Origin: an uncultured archaeon
GTDB taxonomy: Archaea > Halobacteriota > Methanosarcinia > Methanosarcinales > Methanoperedenaceae
DNA: 33,393 nt
Direction of reading: 5' to 3'
Assembly: GCA_902386135.1 (NCBI GenBank)
Contig: CABMIB010000004.1
Location: 1 to 33,393 of the forward strand
Shown piece by piece: positions 9,472 through 17,665 of this stretch. The notes under the pieces were generated by a model. The model was not told the origin of the DNA. It did no database searches and worked only from the letters and a program-made list of their open reading frames with translations. Position numbers and translations under genes: made by a program. Position 1 is the stretch's first letter, and each line of letters starts with the position of its first letter.

Positions 9472-10767
9472 CTATTGTATCGATTGATTATCCTCGCTTT
9501 TTTGGATCTTTTCTGCAGGTTCTTCTATCTTCAGAATGGTATCTGCCGCTCCCCTTCGTGATGAATCCTTCCTGTCTTTTAAAGCCATAATAAGAGGTCC
9601 AACCACAGGCTTGCCTATCTTCATGAGAGCCTGCGCAGCTTCCTCCCTGACGTACTCGTTCCTGTCTTTCAAGGTCTGGATAAGAGGTTCTACAGCAGGT
9701 TCTCCTATTTTAACAAGAATTCCTGATACGTCCTCCCTGGTATACCCGTTCCCGTCTCTCATTGCTGCAATAAGAGATTCTACGGCAGGTTCCCCTATCT
9801 TCCCGAGAGCCACTGCTGCTCTCCACCTGATATCCCAATCTTCATCCTTTAAGCTCTGAATGAGAGCCTGTACAGCAGGTTCTCCTATCCTCATAAGAGC
9901 TTCTGAGGCTTCCTCCCGGACTTCAGGGAATACATCCTTCATAGTCGCAAGCAAAGGTTCTACCGCCCTTTTATCTTCTATTTTTCCAAGAGCCTCGGAA
10001 GCTTTCTTCCTTACCTCGATGTCACTGTCCCTTAAAGCTGTAATAAGAGGTTCAACTGCCTTTTTATTTCCAATCTCCCCAAGTGCTTCGGCAGATCTTT
10101 TCCGGACATACTCGTTCCCGCTCCTTAAAGCTACTATAAGGGTACCAACCGTCCGTTTATCATCAATCTTTACAAGTGCTTCCCCTGCGTCTTCCCTGAC
10201 ATATTCGCTTTTATCCTCAAGAGCCAGGATAAGCGGCTCTACCGCCCTTTTATCGCCTATCTTTCCAAGAGCCCGGGCTGCCGCCTCCCTGACATACTCG
10301 CTTTCATCCCTGAGAGCAAAAATAATGGCCTCCACCGCTTTTTTATCGCCTATCTTTCCAAGAGCCTGCGCAGCCGCCTCCCTGACATACTCGCTTTCAT
10401 CCATGAGAGCTAAAATAATGGCTTCCTCCGCCCTTTTATCGCCTATCTCTCCAAGAGCCATAGCAGCCGCCTCCCTGACATACTCGCTTTCGTCCTTCAA
10501 AGCTTGGATAAGTGGCTCTACTGCCCTTCTATCCCCTGCTTTGCCAAGAGTCTCCGCCGCCCTCCTTCGTATATACCTGTCTTTGTCTTTTAAAGCAAGG
10601 ATAAGCGGCTCTACCGCTCTTCTATCCCCTATATTTCCAAGAACTTCTATGGCTTTTTTTCGGAACTTTACGTATTTTTCCTGCTCCAGTACTTCCTTCA
10701 AGCCTTTAATATCCCTTTCTTCCGCCATTTTTTCAAGGTCGGGCCTGGAAATATCAAATAATCCCAT
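9472..10767 (-). CDS. HEAT-repeat (PBS-lyase type) protein
   Basis: A 431-residue solenoid made almost entirely of about 13 tandem HEAT-like repeats of the PBS lyase type. The first eight have a 31-residue period and end with a GDKRAVEPLI-type helix. The last five have a 30-residue period in which GDKRA is replaced by GEPA. Such solenoids usually act as protein-binding scaffolds or regulators; PBS lyase activity on phycobilin is not expected in an archaeon. Repeats 3-5 are almost identical, suggesting recent expansion. No signal peptide or membrane segment is visible. The ATG start has a strong AAGGAGA site just upstream. It is the first gene of a same-strand run with aspS. The partner is unknown. 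Confidence 0.9.
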   Translation of the reverse strand: MGLFDISRPDLEKMAEERDIKGLKEVLEQEKYVKFRKKAIEVLGNIGDRRAVEPLILALKDKDRYIRRRAAETLGKAGDRRAVEPLIQALKDESEYVREAAAMALGEIGDKRAEEAIILALMDESEYVREAAAQALGKIGDKKAVEAIIFALRDESEYVREAAARALGKIGDKRAVEPLILALEDKSEYVREDAGEALVKIDDKRTVGTLIVALRSGNEYVRKRSAEALGEIGNKKAVEPLITALRDSDIEVRKKASEALGKIEDKRAVEPLLATMKDVFPEVREEASEALMRIGEPAVQALIQSLKDEDWDIRWRAAVALGKIGEPAVESLIAAMRDGNGYTREDVSGILVKIGEPAVEPLIQTLKDRNEYVREEAAQALMKIGKPVVGPLIMALKDRKDSSRRGAADTILKIEEPAEKIQKSEDNQSIQ

Positions 10768-11060
10768 ACAGTCTCCTTATTCCGTTTTTTGAACGTAATT
10801 GAGCATTATGCGCCTATGCCTCCAGGTAAGAAAGAACATTGTAGCCTGCTCTAAGTAATCCGGCCTATTGCGAGCTAATTCTCTGCAGGATTGTCACCCG
10901 CATGGTAGTGGGGTCTATAACTTCAATCCAATATCTCTCTCACATCTATTCACATCACACTAACATCGGTATATATATTTCTATTGCTTTAATTTGCCCG
11001 GGCCGTCGTAGAAATCTTTATAACTCATTATAATATTTATTATAGCATATAGGGAAAATT
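10768..11060. other. Intergenic region between divergent genes
   Basis: This 293-base gap separates the HEAT-repeat gene from the cupredoxin-like gene. It holds the HEAT gene's ribosome binding site at its left end and AT-rich promoter-like sequence at its right end. I looked for a tRNA or short gene around 10880-10960 and found none I can support. Confidence 0.6.
11016..11024 (+). promoter_or_regulatory. TATA-like box ahead of the cupredoxin-like gene
   Basis: CTTTATAAC lies about 40 bases before the ATG at 11061, in a locally AT-rich stretch. Archaeal TATA boxes sit about 25 bases before the transcription start, which would give a leader of 10-20 bases containing AGGG. A second AT-rich stretch at 11029-11043 is an alternative. 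Assigned by eye. Confidence 0.4.
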
Positions 11061-11594
11061 ATGGACTCAAAAAATAATACGTTATATCCTTTAATTATAC
11101 TATTCTTCCTTCTGGGAATTGTGGTAGGGTATGTAATTCACAAGCCGGAGACGAGAATCGAGTATGTCAACAAAACTATAGAAGTTGCGTCGACTCCAAC
11201 AATAAAAGAAGTCGAAAAGATCGTATATGTTACTGCAACCCCCACCTATGTGGCTCCGGCTGCAACCATTGTAACGGCTAATTTTAGTGTAAAAGTATAC
11301 AATCCTGATACTGATAAGCCCACTAATACCATGGAACTTACTAACCGGCGCTTTAACCCACAAACATTATCCATTCCGACAGGCGGTACTGTTTTGATCA
11401 AGATCTCCGATTACTCGCTGCAAAGTCCCCTGATACTCACCCTCGACTCGTACGAAATGAGCCTCGGCACAAGCGGTGCAGTGGTAGTGACATTCAATAA
11501 AAAAGGCATATACAATCTTAAAGCGGTCATTTCCTCAGGTGACCCGAATGTAATACCGCAGACCTACGGAGAAGCTGTAGTAACCGTATCTTAA
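11061..11594 (+). CDS. Membrane-anchored cupredoxin-like protein lacking copper ligands
   Basis: A 177-residue protein with one N-terminal membrane helix (about 9-26, LIILFFLLGIVVGYVIH), a Thr/Pro/Val-rich spacer, and an extracytoplasmic beta domain (about 75-177). The domain has a plastocyanin-like layout: RFNPQTLSIPTGGTV, then a middle strand region, then a KKGIYNLKAV strand where cupredoxins have the F..PG.Y..C loop. The protein has no cysteine, and its only histidine is at the membrane edge, so a type 1 copper site is not possible. It may be a structural or surface domain. Its 3' end overlaps the convergent activator gene by four bases. The fold assignment is by pattern only. Confidence 0.7.
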   Translation: MDSKNNTLYPLIILFFLLGIVVGYVIHKPETRIEYVNKTIEVASTPTIKEVEKIVYVTATPTYVAPAATIVTANFSVKVYNPDTDKPTNTMELTNRRFNPQTLSIPTGGTVLIKISDYSLQSPLILTLDSYEMSLGTSGAVVVTFNKKGIYNLKAVISSGDPNVIPQTYGEAVVTVS

Positions 11595-12277
11595 ATATAA
11601 GACTTTAATGCGCCCAGCGCGTTTATTATCTGGGGCTCACCGGGTATCAGGATATTTTTCCCGAGGATCTCCCTGAGCGCTGCGACCAATCCTTCATTTT
11701 TCACTGTTCCCCCGATGAGAACTACAGTCTCAGCCTGCGGTACCATAAATGATATCCTCCGCGCAAAAGCATAATGCATCCCTGCTACGACTTCCTCCTT
11801 TGAATATCCTGCAACAAGCTGCGAGATCATCTCGGAGATTGCAAATACCCCGCAGGTATTATTGATGTCCGGGACGCGTTCTGCCTTTAAATGAAGCCTG
11901 CCCAGCTCGTTCAGTTCTATTTTAAAATAATTTGCCACGAACTCGAGGAATGCACCAGTACCCGCGCTGCATTTGTCGTTTATTATAAAGTTATTTCTCC
12001 TGACATCTATGACCTTGGTATCCTGCCCCCCGATGTCCACTATCACATCAACATCGGAAAAGTAATGCCGGACACCATAAATAGCAGCGGTTATTTCGGT
12101 CACTGTCGCTCTATGGGGGACCGAATGCCTGAAATACCCTGTTGAGATTATCTCATCGTTCCCTATCCCTTTCACCAGTTCTTTCCAGTTATGGGTCGAA
12201 GTTATCCGGTACTTGACCTCCCCATTCTCTATTGTCGCAATTTTTGCGGTGGTGCTGCCGACATCAAGTCCTATCAT
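11591..12277 (-). CDS. BadF/HgdC-type ATPase, activator of a 2-hydroxyacyl-CoA dehydratase-like protein
   Basis: A 228-residue ASKHA-fold ATPase of the HgdC/BadF family. Family members form a homodimer bridging one [4Fe-4S] cluster and use ATP to drive a low-potential electron into a partner protein. The N-terminal phosphate loop is GLDVGSTTAK and a second nucleotide motif is VDIGGQDTK. The two cluster cysteines are Cys103 (NDKCSAGTGAF) and Cys142 (NNTCGVFAISEM), 39 residues apart, the same spacing as Cys127/Cys166 of Acidaminococcus HgdC. GGTVKN near the C terminus completes the fold. The length is below the usual 260 or so but no motif is missing. It starts with ATG after GAGGTG, and that ribosome binding site lies in a duplicated 16-base repeat. 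It pairs with the gene at 12399-13334. Confidence 0.9.
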   Translation of the reverse strand: MIGLDVGSTTAKIATIENGEVKYRITSTHNWKELVKGIGNDEIISTGYFRHSVPHRATVTEITAAIYGVRHYFSDVDVIVDIGGQDTKVIDVRRNNFIINDKCSAGTGAFLEFVANYFKIELNELGRLHLKAERVPDINNTCGVFAISEMISQLVAGYSKEEVVAGMHYAFARRISFMVPQAETVVLIGGTVKNEGLVAALREILGKNILIPGEPQIINALGALKSYI

Positions 12278-12280
12278 GAA

Positions 12281-12296
12281 GCGACACCTCGCTTTA
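12281..12296 (-). repeat. 16-base direct repeat, copy A (carries the activator gene's ribosome binding site)
   Basis: GCGACACCTCGCTTTA on the + strand; on the transcribed strand it includes GAGGTG, about eight bases before the activator start codon. An identical copy lies at 12362-12377. The two copies bracket a 65-base hairpin-rich segment, as a target-site duplication would. Confidence 0.85.
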
Positions 12297-12361
12297 GTCG
12301 TTCTAGGGGTATGGTCGCAAGACCATACCCCTTCGTTTGATAAACCTTTCTTAAAGGTTTA
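12297..12361. mobile_element. Small hairpin element between two direct repeats (MITE- or REP-like)
   Basis: A 65-base non-coding segment between the two 16-base direct repeats. It contains a perfect 12-bp stem, 12305-12316 with 12321-12332, closed by GCAA (a GNRA-type tetraloop). A second perfect 9-bp stem is at 12341-12349 with 12353-12361, with a CTT loop. Such elements can fold in the mRNA and act as processing sites or partial terminators within an operon. It encodes no protein. Whether it moves as a unit is inferred from the flanking duplication. Confidence 0.6.
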
Positions 12362-12377
12362 GCGACACCTCGCTTTA
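12362..12377 (-). repeat. 16-base direct repeat, copy B
   Basis: Identical to 12281-12296. It lies just past the stop of the dehydratase-like gene on the transcribed strand and carries a second, apparently unused GAGGTG motif. Confidence 0.85.
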
Positions 12378-12398
12378 CCTGGCATTGGAATATGTTTG

Positions 12399-13334
12399 TC
12401 ATAACCTCTCAAGCATCTCCCTGAAGGCCTCAAGCCTCAGTTTTATCTGCTGCGGTGTATTACCCGGCAGGTCTCCCTGGAGCGTCAGCATGGGGTAATC
12501 AAGTCCTTCCCGGATGAGTTCATCCTCAAGCATATGGTGGCATGCGAACTGGGTATAATGTATCACCCCGTCTACTTTTCTTTTTTCAAGTTCCTCCCTG
12601 AGGAAGTTAATCCGCAAGCTAAGCGGCCTGGCAAAGGTATAGTTACAGTAATCCCGTGCTATCTCCTTAATATCGGTGCCTCCGTGCCTTATGAACTCAT
12701 ACGGCAGTTCGTCAAATACAACCTGCAGGCCAAGCGATTGCGCAACTTCATGGAAATCATAATATATCGGGGGGACACCTATCAATGCAACCCTGCTGTC
12801 AAGCTCAAAATCGCTTTCTTTTATTGAGGCTATAGCCTTTCTGAAACCGTCCATATCACCCCGGAGGTCGCTAAAGGAGATCAGGATGCTGAAGGCTTCG
12901 GCTGGTGATATTTTTCCGCAGCTTCTTTTCATATCGATCATCTGCCCGAGCTTTTTCAGTTCCATGATTTCTCCGGGTTTTTCAGGGAATTGAATATCTC
13001 CGAGAAAGCCGGAAAGCCTGTACAGTTGGGATTCAAGGTATTCGGGGTCGCCGTCGAACGGGTAAAAAAAGAAATGGGTCGGAAGCCCGCTCATCGCGAC
13101 GTTCTGTCCGTCCACAAGGGCATTATGGCAGTCCCCGCCGGCTACCACGATAAGGGAATCGACAGCGATCTCCTTTTTAATAAGCATCTCCTTCCAGATA
13201 GCAGTCCACGCACACAGTTTGTTTTTGGGGTACTTTCTGGATGCGGGGACGACGTTATTTACATCAAACGGTTCTCCACCGCAGGCGAATATCAGTTCAG
13301 GAGGAACGAGCGCCGTAATTCCGATTTTTGACAC
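12399..13334 (-). CDS. 2-hydroxyacyl-CoA dehydratase (HgdB/D) family protein, possibly double-cubane-like
   Basis: A 311-residue protein of the 2-hydroxyacyl-CoA dehydratase D-component family, which carries iron-sulfur clusters and receives electrons from an HgdC-type activator. It has the family opening PPELIFACGGEP, Cys18, Cys41 (NKLCAWT) and Cys69 (GGDCHN) in the N half, and ACHHMLEDELIREGLDYP near the C terminus. Only one such subunit is present. True dehydratases need two different subunits, whereas the double-cubane cluster proteins described from Carboxydothermus work as one protein plus an activator. Homologues are known in methanogens without assigned function. The GTG start follows AAGGAAAG. 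It is transcribed first, with the activator about 120 bases downstream. The substrate is unknown. Confidence 0.85.
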   Translation of the reverse strand: MSKIGITALVPPELIFACGGEPFDVNNVVPASRKYPKNKLCAWTAIWKEMLIKKEIAVDSLIVVAGGDCHNALVDGQNVAMSGLPTHFFFYPFDGDPEYLESQLYRLSGFLGDIQFPEKPGEIMELKKLGQMIDMKRSCGKISPAEAFSILISFSDLRGDMDGFRKAIASIKESDFELDSRVALIGVPPIYYDFHEVAQSLGLQVVFDELPYEFIRHGGTDIKEIARDYCNYTFARPLSLRINFLREELEKRKVDGVIHYTQFACHHMLEDELIREGLDYPMLTLQGDLPGNTPQQIKLRLEAFREMLERL

Positions 13335-13537
13335 ATGCTTTCCTTTGTCTACGGGTTATTAATCCTTTTGCAGGAGATATCTGCACTATTAATATAAAGC
13401 CGATTAAAAAACACTGAATGCGCCTTTATAATCCGTTTTTCATGCTTAAAACGTTTATTAATTGTATAAACATATTTATTCGGCGACGAAAGATTTAACG
13501 TATGGTGAAATAATTAACTTTGCCGGAGGTGAAAAAA

Positions 13538-13687
13538 ATGGTCGGACTGGAAAGTTCAATGGATAACGCCCAGACGGCACAGAAGACTAAAAAGCCTGAA
13601 GTCGATTCTGCTGAAAAAAGCAGGCAGAAGAAGTTCATGGAACAGCTCAGACGCCGCTCGGTACCTCAACCCAAAGGAGGCAAATAA
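13538..13687 (+). CDS. Small highly charged protein (49 aa)
   Basis: A short gene starting with ATG at 13538, preceded by a near-perfect GGAGGTGA ribosome binding site, and ending with TAA. The 49-residue product is rich in Lys, Arg, Gln and Glu, including QLRRRS and a GGK end, with no cysteine, membrane helix or recognised domain; it is probably disordered. AT-rich, TATA-like sequence lies at 13471-13480 (CATATTTATT). The strong start signals are the main reason to call it real. The function is unknown; nucleic-acid binding is only a guess from the charge. Confidence 0.65.
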   Translation: MVGLESSMDNAQTAQKTKKPEVDSAEKSRQKKFMEQLRRRSVPQPKGGK

Positions 13688-13720
13688 TTTTTAATTAATA
13701 AAACTGGGCTATTAGCCGGT

Positions 13721-13814
13721 AGACATGAGGGCGGGCGAATATATCCCAAATATATTAAATTACCAGGCATTTGATTTGCCTTTTCATGTTGCACTGTTCG
13801 CTCCCTTATGTCTA
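13721..13814. repeat. Imperfect inverted repeat in a gene gap
   Basis: The left arm 13721-13739 (AGACATGAGGGCGGGCGAA) pairs with the right arm 13798-13814 (TTCGCTCCCTTATGTCT), with one G:U-compatible change and a two-base bulge. The 58-base loop holds further short palindromes. It could be a terminator or RNA for the 49-aa gene, or a remnant element. Confidence 0.55.
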
Positions 13815-13880
13815 TAGATTTTTTGAACTTAAGTACGGTCTTGATTGCAGGGGCGTAAAGTACATTATTAAGTTAATGCC

Positions 13881-13890
13881 ATAAATATAA
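13881..13890 (+). promoter_or_regulatory. TATA-like box ahead of the Cys-cluster protein
   Basis: ATAAATATAA lies 32-41 bases before the ATG at 13922. No ribosome binding site precedes that ATG, so a very short or leaderless transcript is likely. Assigned by eye. Confidence 0.4.
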
Positions 13891-13921
13891 TAACTATTTA
13901 GTCAATTCGGCATCTGTTATT

Positions 13922-14230
13922 ATGGACCAAAACATTTACTCTGACCCCGCCCATAATCTGGGTTGCAGCTACCGTTTTACCTGCGGAGCTGTGAAGTGCC
14001 CCGAAGTTGCGGCAGCGTTGGGTAAGCCATCATGCCATATAGAAAAGTTCAGGCGCTACCAGCCGTCTGTTGAAACATGGTACAGACGGGACTGGGAGGA
14101 CGTTAACAGGATCACCTGGAGAGAGGTTTTCTGCCTGCAGGAGTCGTGGATTTACATGCTGTACATTATTATACTTAGCGTATTTATATTTATGGCAATG
14201 GTATTAATGAGACTTTTATTAAACACTTAG
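13922..14230 (+). CDS. Small Cys-cluster protein with C-terminal membrane anchor
   Basis: A 102-residue protein with two parts. The N-terminal soluble part contains Cys15, Cys21, Cys26 and Cys38 followed by His39, a spacing that could bind a metal or iron-sulfur cluster but matches no standard motif I know. A single hydrophobic helix at about 79-97 ([18 protein letters not shown]) anchors the tail. Aromatic and basic residues ([10 protein letters not shown]) lie between. There is no ribosome binding site, but a TATA-like box is suitably placed. It converges on mptA and overlaps its stop by four bases. I cannot name a family. Confidence 0.65.
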
Positions 14231-15237
14231 CTGATATTATTAATCTCCTGCCTCAGCTCCCCCAGAGTTGATTTACGCTCGGCGAAAGCATTATGGCGGT
14301 GGATGCTTTCCTCGTTTATCTGCTTGACAGTGATGATCGAATCATCAGGCAGCTCAGGAAATTCGTTCACGATTTTCTGCGCCATGGTTCGCACGCAGTC
14401 CTCTACGAATTTGGGGTTCTTATGCGCCAATTCTACTATTGCGGCTTCATCAGATCTCTTTAACAGCTCGAACATCTGCGAACTCATGGAGTTCTCGATT
14501 ATGTTGATTATCCTGTCGATAGAAACAAAGTTACTATCATGGACCTCGATTGAAATGATTCCCCGCCCCCTCTGGTTATGCGTGGGCATGGGTACCCTGT
14601 TCAGGAACTCCCTGATAACCTCGTCTTTTACGCCAAGGACTTTTAGTTCCTTTTTTGCCTTATCCCGCATGATCTCCTGGGCGCAGGGGCAGGCTGTGAT
14701 TCCCAGGACTTCAGCGCCGACGAGCTTTCTCACGTTCAGTTCTTCCCCTCTTATAGCCCTGGCTTCGGCAAAGATGTTCACGACTTCCTGGCATTTTATT
14801 TTCGTCATCGGGGTCTCTCTTTTGATGATATATTCGCTTTTCATCCTGACCTCGGCGTTCAAAGCGTATTCATGTCTGTCGATAAGCCGCTTTGCCACTT
14901 CCCCGCACAGGTCTTCTATCTCATAGACCGGCGCAGCTATCATTTCCTCAAGCACAGCATCTATGGCTTCAAAGTTCCGTGAGAGGTTTGCGCCTTTCCT
15001 GTTGGACGGGAGATCTACAAAAATATCGAACGTGGATACGAGTACGATAGGACGCTTATCTTTGCGTGCCACTTCAACAAGTTTCTTTACATCTGTTACC
15101 CCAACTCTTGTCAGCGTGATGGGAATCTCGGGCAGGTTTGCCTGGATATCGGGGAGGTGTATGACTGGAAGTTCCATCTGGTCAGGTTCTCCAAAATATT
15201 TATCTCTGTAAGTCCTTGCAGGCTTAAAGATGCTCAT
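14227..15237 (-). CDS. mptA: GTP cyclohydrolase MptA (COG1469/FolE2 family)
   Basis: Fe(II)-dependent GTP cyclohydrolase. In methanogens MptA converts GTP to 7,8-dihydroneopterin 2',3'-cyclic phosphate, the first step to the pterin of tetrahydromethanopterin. The 336-residue length fits the archaeal family. Family motifs seen are [20 protein letters not shown] at the N terminus, [11 protein letters not shown] with the paired cysteines, [10 protein letters not shown] with the metal-site histidine region, and [14 protein letters not shown] near the C terminus. It starts with ATG at 15237. It is monocistronic as far as seen and lies tail to tail with the Cys-cluster gene. The cofactor fits an organism with methanogenic or reverse-methanogenic C1 metabolism. 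Confidence 0.96.
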
Positions 15238-15289
15238 TATGACGTTGTATTATTAAACTATTGCTATTTGGTTCTGCTGTAATGAGGGG

Positions 15290-15336
15290 GGTGATTACCA
15301 ATTCATAGGTTCGCCATTTAAACTCAACTGTTTTTT
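15290..15336 (+). repeat. 47-base direct repeat, copy A
   Basis: It begins GGTGATTACCAATTCATAGG. It matches 17979-18025 with about four differences in 47 bases, including 27 identical bases in a row (15297-15323). It lies downstream of the second hybrid kinase gene, with copy B upstream of the same gene. Confidence 0.85.
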
Positions 15337-15418
15337 GAAAAACCACCGATTGATTAGAACAGTCAGGTTAAATTAAAGGATATTATACTATTATCTTAGG
15401 TCTTAGTGAGGGGTCTCT

Positions 15419-17665
15419 CTATTTTGCACTTAAAACCTCATGCATGGTTTTTAGCAACTTCTCAGCAGTGTAAGGTTTTGGCAAAAAAGCGTTTGTATAA
15501 TGCGCGATATTTGCAAGTCTATCTTTCTCCGATAATCCACTAACTGCAATAATTTTGACCTCAGGATTAATCTTACGAATAGCCCGGATGCTCGTTTGAC
15601 CATCCATAACAGGCATCATCATATCCATAAGTACAATTTTGATTTTATCTTTATTTTCAGTATACAATGCTACTGCCTGTTCACCATCTTCGGCTGTAAG
15701 CACTTTATACCCGTATGCTTCCAGTGTCGAGCAAGTAATCTCACAAATTGAGACTTCATCTTCAGCAACGAGAATAAATTCCCCATTACCAACTGGCAGT
15801 TCAAGCTTATGCTGTCCTGCATCTTTTATTTCAGTTTTGATCGCCGGCAAGTAGACTTGAAATGTTGTTCCTTTCCCAACCTCGCTATACACATTTATAA
15901 ATCCGCCGTGACTTTTCACAATTCCAAGAGCCGTTGAAAGACCTAAGCCCGTGCCTTTGCCATGTTCTTTTGTGGTAAAAAACGGCTCAAAAATTCTATC
16001 CAGTACTTCAGGAGAGATACCTGTTCCAGTATCTGAAACAGCAATGACAATGTAAGAACCGACTTTAGCTTCAGTATGCATCCGTGCATAATTCTCGTCA
16101 ATGAAAAAATTCGAAGCTGTGATACTTAAGGTGCCGCCAGATGGCATCGCATCGCGTGCATTCACACAGAGGTTCATTATAACCTGGTGCAACTGTGTCG
16201 CATCCCCCGAGATTCTCCAGAGATCTTTGGGTATATCAGTTCTGATTTCAATATTTCTTGGAAATGTCTCCTTTGCGACCTTCTCAATTTCAGTAATAAT
16301 ATGTTTCGCTTGAAGGGGGTTGCGTTCACCCTCCACCCCTCGTGCAAACGATAGAACCTGTTTTATCAAATCTGCCCCTCGTTTGGTATTTCTATCCAGC
16401 ATATCAAGCAACTTCTGACAATCTTCGTCTATGTATTTATCTTTTAATAGTTGCAGCGATAACATTATTGGCGTCAAAACATTGTTGAGGTCATGCGCTA
16501 TGCCGCCTGCAAGCGTACCTATGCTTTCCATCCTTTGAGCGCGAAGGAACTGCGCTTCAAGCTTTTTCTTTTCAGTGATGTCTGTGTTAATGACAAGTAT
16601 TGATTTAGGTTTTCCCGCATCATCACGCACCATGGTCCAGCGGCTTTCGACAATGACTTCTTTACCATCTTTCGTCACCTCATACAACTCGCCTGCCCAC
16701 TCACCCTTTTCGATGACGCTCTTTTTAGCTTCAATGCGCCTGGCTGATTCTTCTTTATATAGAAGCTCATCAGCATTTTTACCTATGATTTCCTCTGCTG
16801 CCCAGCCATACAGATGCTCAGCGCCTTTATTCCAATAGATAAAGTGTTGTTCTAAGTCCCAGACGCCAATGGCATCGTGTGCTTTATCAAGAAGGGCAGA
16901 TTGTTCTCGTATTTTTTCTTCAGCCAGCTTGCGCTCAGCAGCCTCTTCTATATTAAAAATGTTCACTATATTCCAAAGAGACCAGGCAATTCCCACCGCA
17001 ATTAAAGCGCGGAACATTTGAACCGGAAATCCAAACCATGAAATAAACCATACATTGTTTATCGCCGAAGCTGGATAAAAGTTCGCTTGGGGGACTATCC
17101 ATCCTCCGAATATCCCATAAAGCCCAAATAATAAAGCGATAAGAATAAAATATTTTTCAATTTTAGCCCCGTCTAATTTCTTAGCTTCACTCTTATAGTA
17201 TGAAATAAATCCCGTAGCACTTAAAATCGCACCTGGAAAACCCAAAAAGTATCTTGATGAAATATTCCAGGTATCAAAAGATGTTGCTCCTGATAATGCT
17301 GGCATTCCAAGAAATAAAAGCGCTATTGTAAATGGAAACCAAATACCGAGTCTTTTTCTCCCGCCGATATTAATCATCCCGTAACCGAATAAAAAGAGAG
17401 ATAAGAAGGAAATAAATAAAACCGAGGCACCAAGAATTTCCAGGAAAGGAAGGTTCCCTTTAATGAGCTTAAACATATCTATAAATTCGCTTATTCCGTG
17501 AATAAACCCAAACCAGGCCAAAAGCCATAAAATATCAAGCAATCTAAATTTGCTCTGTTTGGTAACCCTTAGCTGCACGAAAATGATAATCCCAAGGATT
17601 GTAAAAGCAAACCCATAAATGAAGAAGACAACATCCAGATTTTTAATAAAAAAGTCAGTTAACAT
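15419..17665 (-). CDS. Hybrid sensor histidine kinase with multi-pass membrane sensor, one PAS domain and a receiver
   Basis: A membrane sensor kinase of 748 residues counted from ATG at 17665, which follows GGGGAAAG; a longer frame would need TTG at 17704. The N-terminal 240 or so residues form about seven membrane helices, resembling a seven-helix sensory module. One PAS domain follows (about 262-375), then HisKA with His391 in GGIAHDLNN, a HATPase domain ([30 protein letters not shown]), and a receiver with Asp681 in LMDMMMP. From the PAS domain to the end it closely parallels the kinase at 1-3809, including [20 protein letters not shown], whereas the sensors are unrelated. It is flanked by a 47-base direct repeat. 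No response regulator with an output domain is nearby. Confidence 0.93.

Follow-up and report, generated by a model that had tools for sequence, protein, structure and literature searches.

Background

The substrates for which the HGD-D superfamily is physiologically well known are CoA thioesters. Six cysteines hold the double cubane in BzdN and three hold the single aqua [4Fe-4S] cluster in BzdO; both BzdO and HadB combine this three-cysteine pattern with a single [4Fe-4S]-OH2 cluster (PMC11971306). The double-cubane protein DCCP reduces acetylene, hydrazine and azide (PMC11971306). Thus reduction of triple bonds is within reach of the superfamily.

To our knowledge, QueF is the only known enzyme that reduces the nitrile of preQ0 (7-cyano-7-deazaguanine) to form preQ1 (7-aminomethyl-7-deazaguanine). 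It uses two NADPH and a cysteine thioimide for this net reaction (PMC5485725). Viruses with QueF homologs carry dPreQ1 in their DNA (PMC6884629). Queuosine itself is made de novo by bacteria only, according to a paper of 2024 (PMC11130926).

Two genes in a Methanoperedenaceae genome

The window, that is, the whole stretch of 33,393 nucleotides analysed here, belongs to an uncultured archaeon of the Methanoperedenaceae. Its minus strand contains two genes previously described, from the letters alone, as a two-gene system of a dehydratase-like subunit and its activator. The system is real, and profile searches confirmed both families. The gene at 11591..12277 (minus strand) encodes an activase of the HgdC/BcrA-D type, 228 aa long. 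It scores 174.4 bits against the acyl-CoA dehydratase activase model TIGR00241 (cut-off 125.4), matches PF01869 in the Pfam scan (E 7e-30), and has orthologs in other genomes and phmmer matches to the solved activators 4eht (E 2.7e-36) and 7yyl_E (E 2.5e-32). Both cluster cysteines ascribed to it are present: Cys103 in NDKCSAGTG (codon 11969..11971, minus strand) and Cys142 in NNTCGVFA (codon 11852..11854, minus strand), 39 residues apart and aligned with the cysteines of 4eht and 7yyl.

The gene at 12399..13334 (minus strand, GTG start) encodes a short HGD-D subunit of 311 aa. PF06050 is its sole match in the Pfam scan (E 8.5e-23, above the cut-off), and the same scan revealed no homology to the T-fold of QueF (PF14489). 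The subunit is 94% identical to its counterpart in Ca. M. nitroreducens Mnv1 (Candidatus Methanoperedens, ANME-2d). No second HGD-D gene was found in the source genome (99% complete), which upholds the layout of one subunit with an ATP-driven activator. Neither a CoA-transferase nor a fermentation gene was noticed near the pair among the window genes scanned.

Here 121 bases separate the two genes, whereas many relatives have them overlapping or almost abutting. The gap contains a perfect 11-base inverted repeat at 12306-12331, GGGGTATGGTC-GCAA-GACCATACCCC, present in a single copy in the window and flanked by short direct repeats agcgacacctcgcttta; it is perhaps a small inserted element. An Rfam scan of positions 10500-15500 of the window gave no match.

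Conserved cysteines and fold

The four cysteines singled out in the preliminary description sit where it placed them. Cys41 in KLCAW (codon 13212..13214), Cys69 in GDCHN (13128..13130) and Cys265 in HYTQFACHH (12540..12542), all on the minus strand, are the proposed cluster ligands 1, 2 and 3, invariant in the archaeal members and in a relative from the fusobacterium Ilyobacter polytropus. Cys18 (codon 13281..13283, minus strand), a possible fourth ligand or nucleophile, is invariant in the archaeal members and replaced by Ala in Ilyobacter, and hence is not essential to all members. All four are invariant in 30 Methanoperedens-type sequences, and the members found in the order's other families keep them too.

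The cysteines were compared by aligning 11 short members with 14 longer HGD-D proteins from the same phylum, most of which are of the double-cubane type. Most long forms have additional cysteines at the positions of T7, V187 and P211, in an insertion beside N26, and at two positions near Y232. None of the 11 short members has a cysteine at any of these positions; instead, they share T7, D24, N26, N27, W43, D68, N71, H195, H259, T261, Q262 and D271. Since the cysteines of the second cubane are absent and the remaining three follow the pattern of BzdO and HadB, the short family probably holds one cluster, its iron either open or capped by Cys18.

This bears on the earlier assignment of the pair to the double-cubane reductases. 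A DCCP-like enzyme acting on some other small substrate would explain the layout of one subunit plus activator and the weak similarity of the C-terminus to the double-cubane model, 7yyl and 6eno. However, the double-cubane model NF040772 matches residues 222-308 only, at the C-terminus, with 32.7 bits against a cut-off of 350 (56.4 bits for the Ilyobacter member). In the phylogenetic tree the short family forms its own clade with the Ilyobacter protein, separate from the double-cubane type, with support 100/99, although the branch leading to the Ilyobacter protein is long (2.46), which calls for caution about long-branch effects. The cysteine pattern, the NF040772 score and the separate clade led us to reject a double-cubane identity; as judged from sequence, the site would hold one simple cluster on Cys41, Cys69 and Cys265, an outcome that the preliminary description had itself named as refuting its view. 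We regard the DCCP-like reading as highly improbable.

The AlphaFold model of the subunit has the superfamily fold (overall pLDDT 85.5); near Cys41 (residues 38-43) and Cys265 (residues 264-266) the pLDDT drops below 50. The best Foldseek match by E-value is 3o3n_B of 2-hydroxyisocaproyl-CoA dehydratase (E 4.3e-14, TM 0.77). Both subunits of that enzyme are followed by MbdON, DCCP, which ranks ninth and so speaks further against a double-cubane protein, and BzdNO; the match to 9g87_B has an E-value of 1.9e-10. The fold match to 3o3n, together with the Pfam HGD-D and activase families, could be taken to mean that the pair is a 2-hydroxyacyl-CoA dehydratase or a CoA-ester reductase with an unusual single subunit. 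But such enzymes are expected to have two different subunits and the genome encodes one HGD-D protein, which is some 60-90 residues shorter than both Had subunits. Moreover, no pathway context for a CoA ester was seen; the context is instead the co-distribution with queuosine genes and the operon described below. A CoA-ester enzyme is thus very unlikely.

Phylogenetic distribution

Strong matches to the short HGD-D family are confined to one order (393 genomes of the phylum considered), where they occur in 51 of 186 genomes. Family f1 (Methanoperedenaceae) has them in all but two incomplete genomes and family f3 in all but one incomplete genome; the other occurrences are in genus g14 of family f4 and in one genome of family f2, G381, which is Methanosarcina-like in its size and kinship. 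Among the 186 genomes, f38, genus g138 of f4 and all other f2 genomes lack the short HGD-D family. Very tentatively, f3 may correspond to ANME-2a/b and f38 to ANME-2c, and Ca. Ethanoperedens may be the source of the closed g14 genome of 1.9 Mb.

The distribution of QueA is almost the same: it is present in 49 of the 186 genomes, 47 of them shared with the short HGD-D family. No QueA was found outside the lineages that bear this family (386 genomes of the phylum). In the 118 good-quality genomes of the order, the short HGD-D subunit occurs in 30 and QueA in 29, and the two sets differ by G381 only; these counts include many close kin and correspond to only about 3-4 independent gains or losses.

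The pairing is conserved to a degree well above chance: an ortholog of the activase was present in all ten HGD-D-bearing genomes checked, and of 29 Methanoperedens-type loci, 27 have it adjoining the HGD-D gene. Locus L003, from Ca. M. nitroreducens ANME-2d, has a split pair, the activase ortholog being on another contig (G509:C7:179272-179952); locus L006 has an HGD-D gene with no adjacent activase. One Methanoperedens genome (G364) has, besides the short pair, two further, longer HGD-D genes (L071, L072) with activases nearby. Viral and phage relatives of the short subunit were searched for and none was found.

Queuosine pathway genes

On a single stretch of contig C61 of the source genome (L139, G000:C61:5000-20000) we found QueA (422 bits, cut-off 324), a bacterial-type Tgt (467 bits, cut-off 307) and QueH. 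Apparently, this archaeon holds a complete queuosine pathway. QueH is present in 49 of the 186 genomes, its distribution almost coinciding with that of the short HGD-D subunit; no QueG was found above the cut-off. The first queuosine hypothesis suggested by the co-distribution with QueA, that the pair is an epoxyqueuosine reductase, was downgraded once QueH had been found in the same genomes. QueC is present in all 14 cases checked (13 genomes and the Ilyobacter replicon).

QueF (PF14489) exceeds the cut-off in only one of the 186 genomes, on a phage-like contig of G436; no chromosomal QueF was found in the HGD-D-bearing archaea of this set. QPTR, which transports preQ0 and preQ1, was found in none of the 14 cases tested. 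Given that QueC, Tgt, QueA and QueH are present and QueF and QPTR absent, the vacant step is that from preQ0 to preQ1, as scored in the archaea; the data for Ilyobacter are those of the plasmid pILYOP01.

The QueF-bearing contig (L138, G436:C66:1-20000), binned with Methanoperedens, also encodes QueC, FolE, DNA polymerase A and a clamp loader, as well as a radical SAM protein that is probably QueE. It is likely to be from a virus with 7-deazaguanine-modified DNA. G436 was considered as a case of displacement of HGD-D by QueF and rejected: the TGA of its HGD-D gene is a normal stop, and the QueF gene is on the phage-like contig.

An empty QueF step could also mean that preQ1 is imported, the que company of the pair being a matter of lineage and chance. 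Indeed, preQ1 salvage is inferred for many bacteria of the gut that have QueA, QueG/QueH and Tgt but lack QueF (PMC6593275). On the other hand, QueC in all genomes checked implies that preQ0 can be made in the cell, and without QPTR uptake would need another transporter. The Ilyobacter operon and the queA-tgt neighbourhood described below are, in addition, independent linkages, and import is a quite improbable explanation.

Gene neighbourhoods

In Ilyobacter polytropus (Fusobacteriota), plasmid pILYOP01 contains an operon of HGD-D, activase, queD, queE, folE and queC (L136:12001-16155) with intergenic gaps of at most 13 bases. The pair occupies the place in the operon where queF would be expected. 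The Ilyobacter HGD-D protein is 30% identical to the window subunit over the full length (E 3e-42). Among plasmid records, the window subunit matched this one alone, and no further plasmid relatives of the Ilyobacter protein were found.

The leader of the Ilyobacter operon (L136:11865-11979; fold z-score -4.4) contains a match resembling the preQ1-I riboswitch, with 12.3 bits against a gathering threshold of 39 (E 3), and a terminator-like hairpin just before the start codon of the operon. The riboswitch match is below the threshold, and a preQ1 riboswitch ahead of the operon was not counted as evidence.

Among the archaea, seven genomes of genus g11 of f3 have the pair either adjoining queA-tgt or no more than 2.5 kb away, the distance being about 110 bases in the tightest cases. 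In Methanoperedens the pair is 2-5 kb from queH in L015, L018, L019, G432, G433, G439 and G455, a list in which some genomes may occur more than once. The window itself contains a gene for the GTP cyclohydrolase MptA at 14227..15237 on the minus strand (TIGR00294, 457.4 bits, cut-off 220), which provides a precursor of pterins and possibly of 7-deazaguanines. In 15 of 30 Methanoperedens-type loci, no more than 2.6 kb separates mptA from the pair, a linkage that is suggestive only.

In the Methanosarcina-like G381 genome, which has no QueA, the pair follows, in one row (L137:9614-19499), genes for a DpdA-like transglycosylase, three proteins of unknown function (269, 163 and 1296 aa), a PglZ-like protein and a HerA-type ATPase (mad8-like). 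The DpdA-like match is divergent (NF041059, E 2.5e-6, 26.6 bits, cut-off 200). The row suggests a 7-deazaguanine DNA system and is a candidate for a new DNA-modification defence system.

The same co-distribution and linkage would be expected if the pair acted elsewhere in 7-deazaguanine metabolism, either on epoxyqueuosine, converting it to queuosine in place of QueG or QueH, or on preQ0 already in tRNA or DNA. In the good-quality genome G410, QueA and the pair occur with no match to QueH, which fits the former variant. However, QueH is present in almost all pair-bearing genomes, so that its step is filled and that of QueF is empty. Furthermore, the Ilyobacter operon places the pair with the genes that make preQ0, not with queA or tgt, and G381 has the pair without QueA. 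Such a role elsewhere in the pathway is unlikely.

Proposed function and mechanism

It is very likely that the pair has some role in 7-deazaguanine metabolism. The specific role that we propose is that of an ATP-driven iron-sulfur nitrile reductase converting preQ0 to preQ1, with the 311-aa protein as the catalytic subunit, and we put the probability of this reading at roughly 0.7. It is drawn from the empty QueF step, the co-distribution with QueA, the que linkages and the Ilyobacter operon; the operon is the strongest single fact, and the co-distribution with the empty step is the strongest pattern. In the literature covered, which excludes most subscription journals and preprints, no link between this HGD-D family and queuosine was found.

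From the gene content, co-distribution, linkage, conserved residues and clade we infer a substrate, a cluster type, an oligomer and a chemistry along the following lines. The activase, as the proposed electron donor to the HGD-D subunit, would form a dimer with one [4Fe-4S] cluster held between its subunits by Cys103 and Cys142, and would take an electron from ferredoxin. By analogy with related systems, ATP hydrolysis would then drive the transfer of single electrons of very low potential to an HGD-D homodimer. The nitrile nitrogen might bind at the open iron of a [4Fe-4S] cluster on Cys41, Cys69 and Cys265. Four one-electron cycles (four electrons and four protons, in two rounds of two each) would convert the nitrile to the imine and further to the aminomethyl group. 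Cys18 could play the role of the thioimide cysteine in archaea, with Ala in its place in Ilyobacter. The resulting preQ1 would be inserted into tRNA by the bacterial-type Tgt and processed to the end by QueA and QueH.

The ATP-driven low-potential reduction envisaged in the preliminary description is retained as a prediction from sequence, most simply by a homodimer of the HGD-D subunit; for the substrate, given there as unknown, we can name preQ0 as a specific candidate. Among the substrates of the superfamily, a free base would be a novelty.

The pair would rather probably represent a second, unrelated biological enzyme type for nitrile reduction, one that belongs to the benzoyl-CoA-reductase/dehydratase superfamily. 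By making preQ1, it would enable methane-oxidising archaea, archaea related to them and a fusobacterium to synthesise queuosine de novo, and in one methanogen it would serve a cluster for DNA modification. If so, there is a route of nitrile reduction that spends ATP and not NADPH, and the queuosine pathway is complete in the archaea behind anaerobic methane oxidation; until now, archaea have been regarded as incapable of making this base. An orphan HGD-D clade, now annotated automatically as 2-hydroxyacyl-CoA dehydratase, would gain a function.

Comparison with known systems

The pair shares with QueF (PF14489) the proposed reaction, the place in the pathway and the place in the operon. The proteins are unrelated: QueF is an NADPH-dependent T-fold enzyme with a cysteine thioimide, whereas the pair would be an ATP-driven HGD-D iron-sulfur enzyme. 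QueH and QueG, the epoxyqueuosine reductases, are likewise iron-sulfur reductases of the pathway proposed for the pair, but they catalyse a different step and belong to different protein families, and QueH is already present in these genomes.

Within the superfamily, DCCP and its activator (6eno, 7yyl) resemble the pair in having a single HGD-D subunit, an HgdC-type activator and ATP-driven reduction at low potential. However, the short subunit is about 110 residues shorter than DCCP, lacks the cysteines of the second cubane, falls in its own clade and occurs in another genomic context. The (R)-2-hydroxyisocaproyl-CoA dehydratase HadBC and the class I benzoyl-CoA reductases BzdNO and MbdON have the fold in common with the subunit, and HadB and BzdO share its three-cysteine, single-cluster pattern; these enzymes consist of two different subunits and act on CoA esters, whereas the pair has one, shorter subunit.
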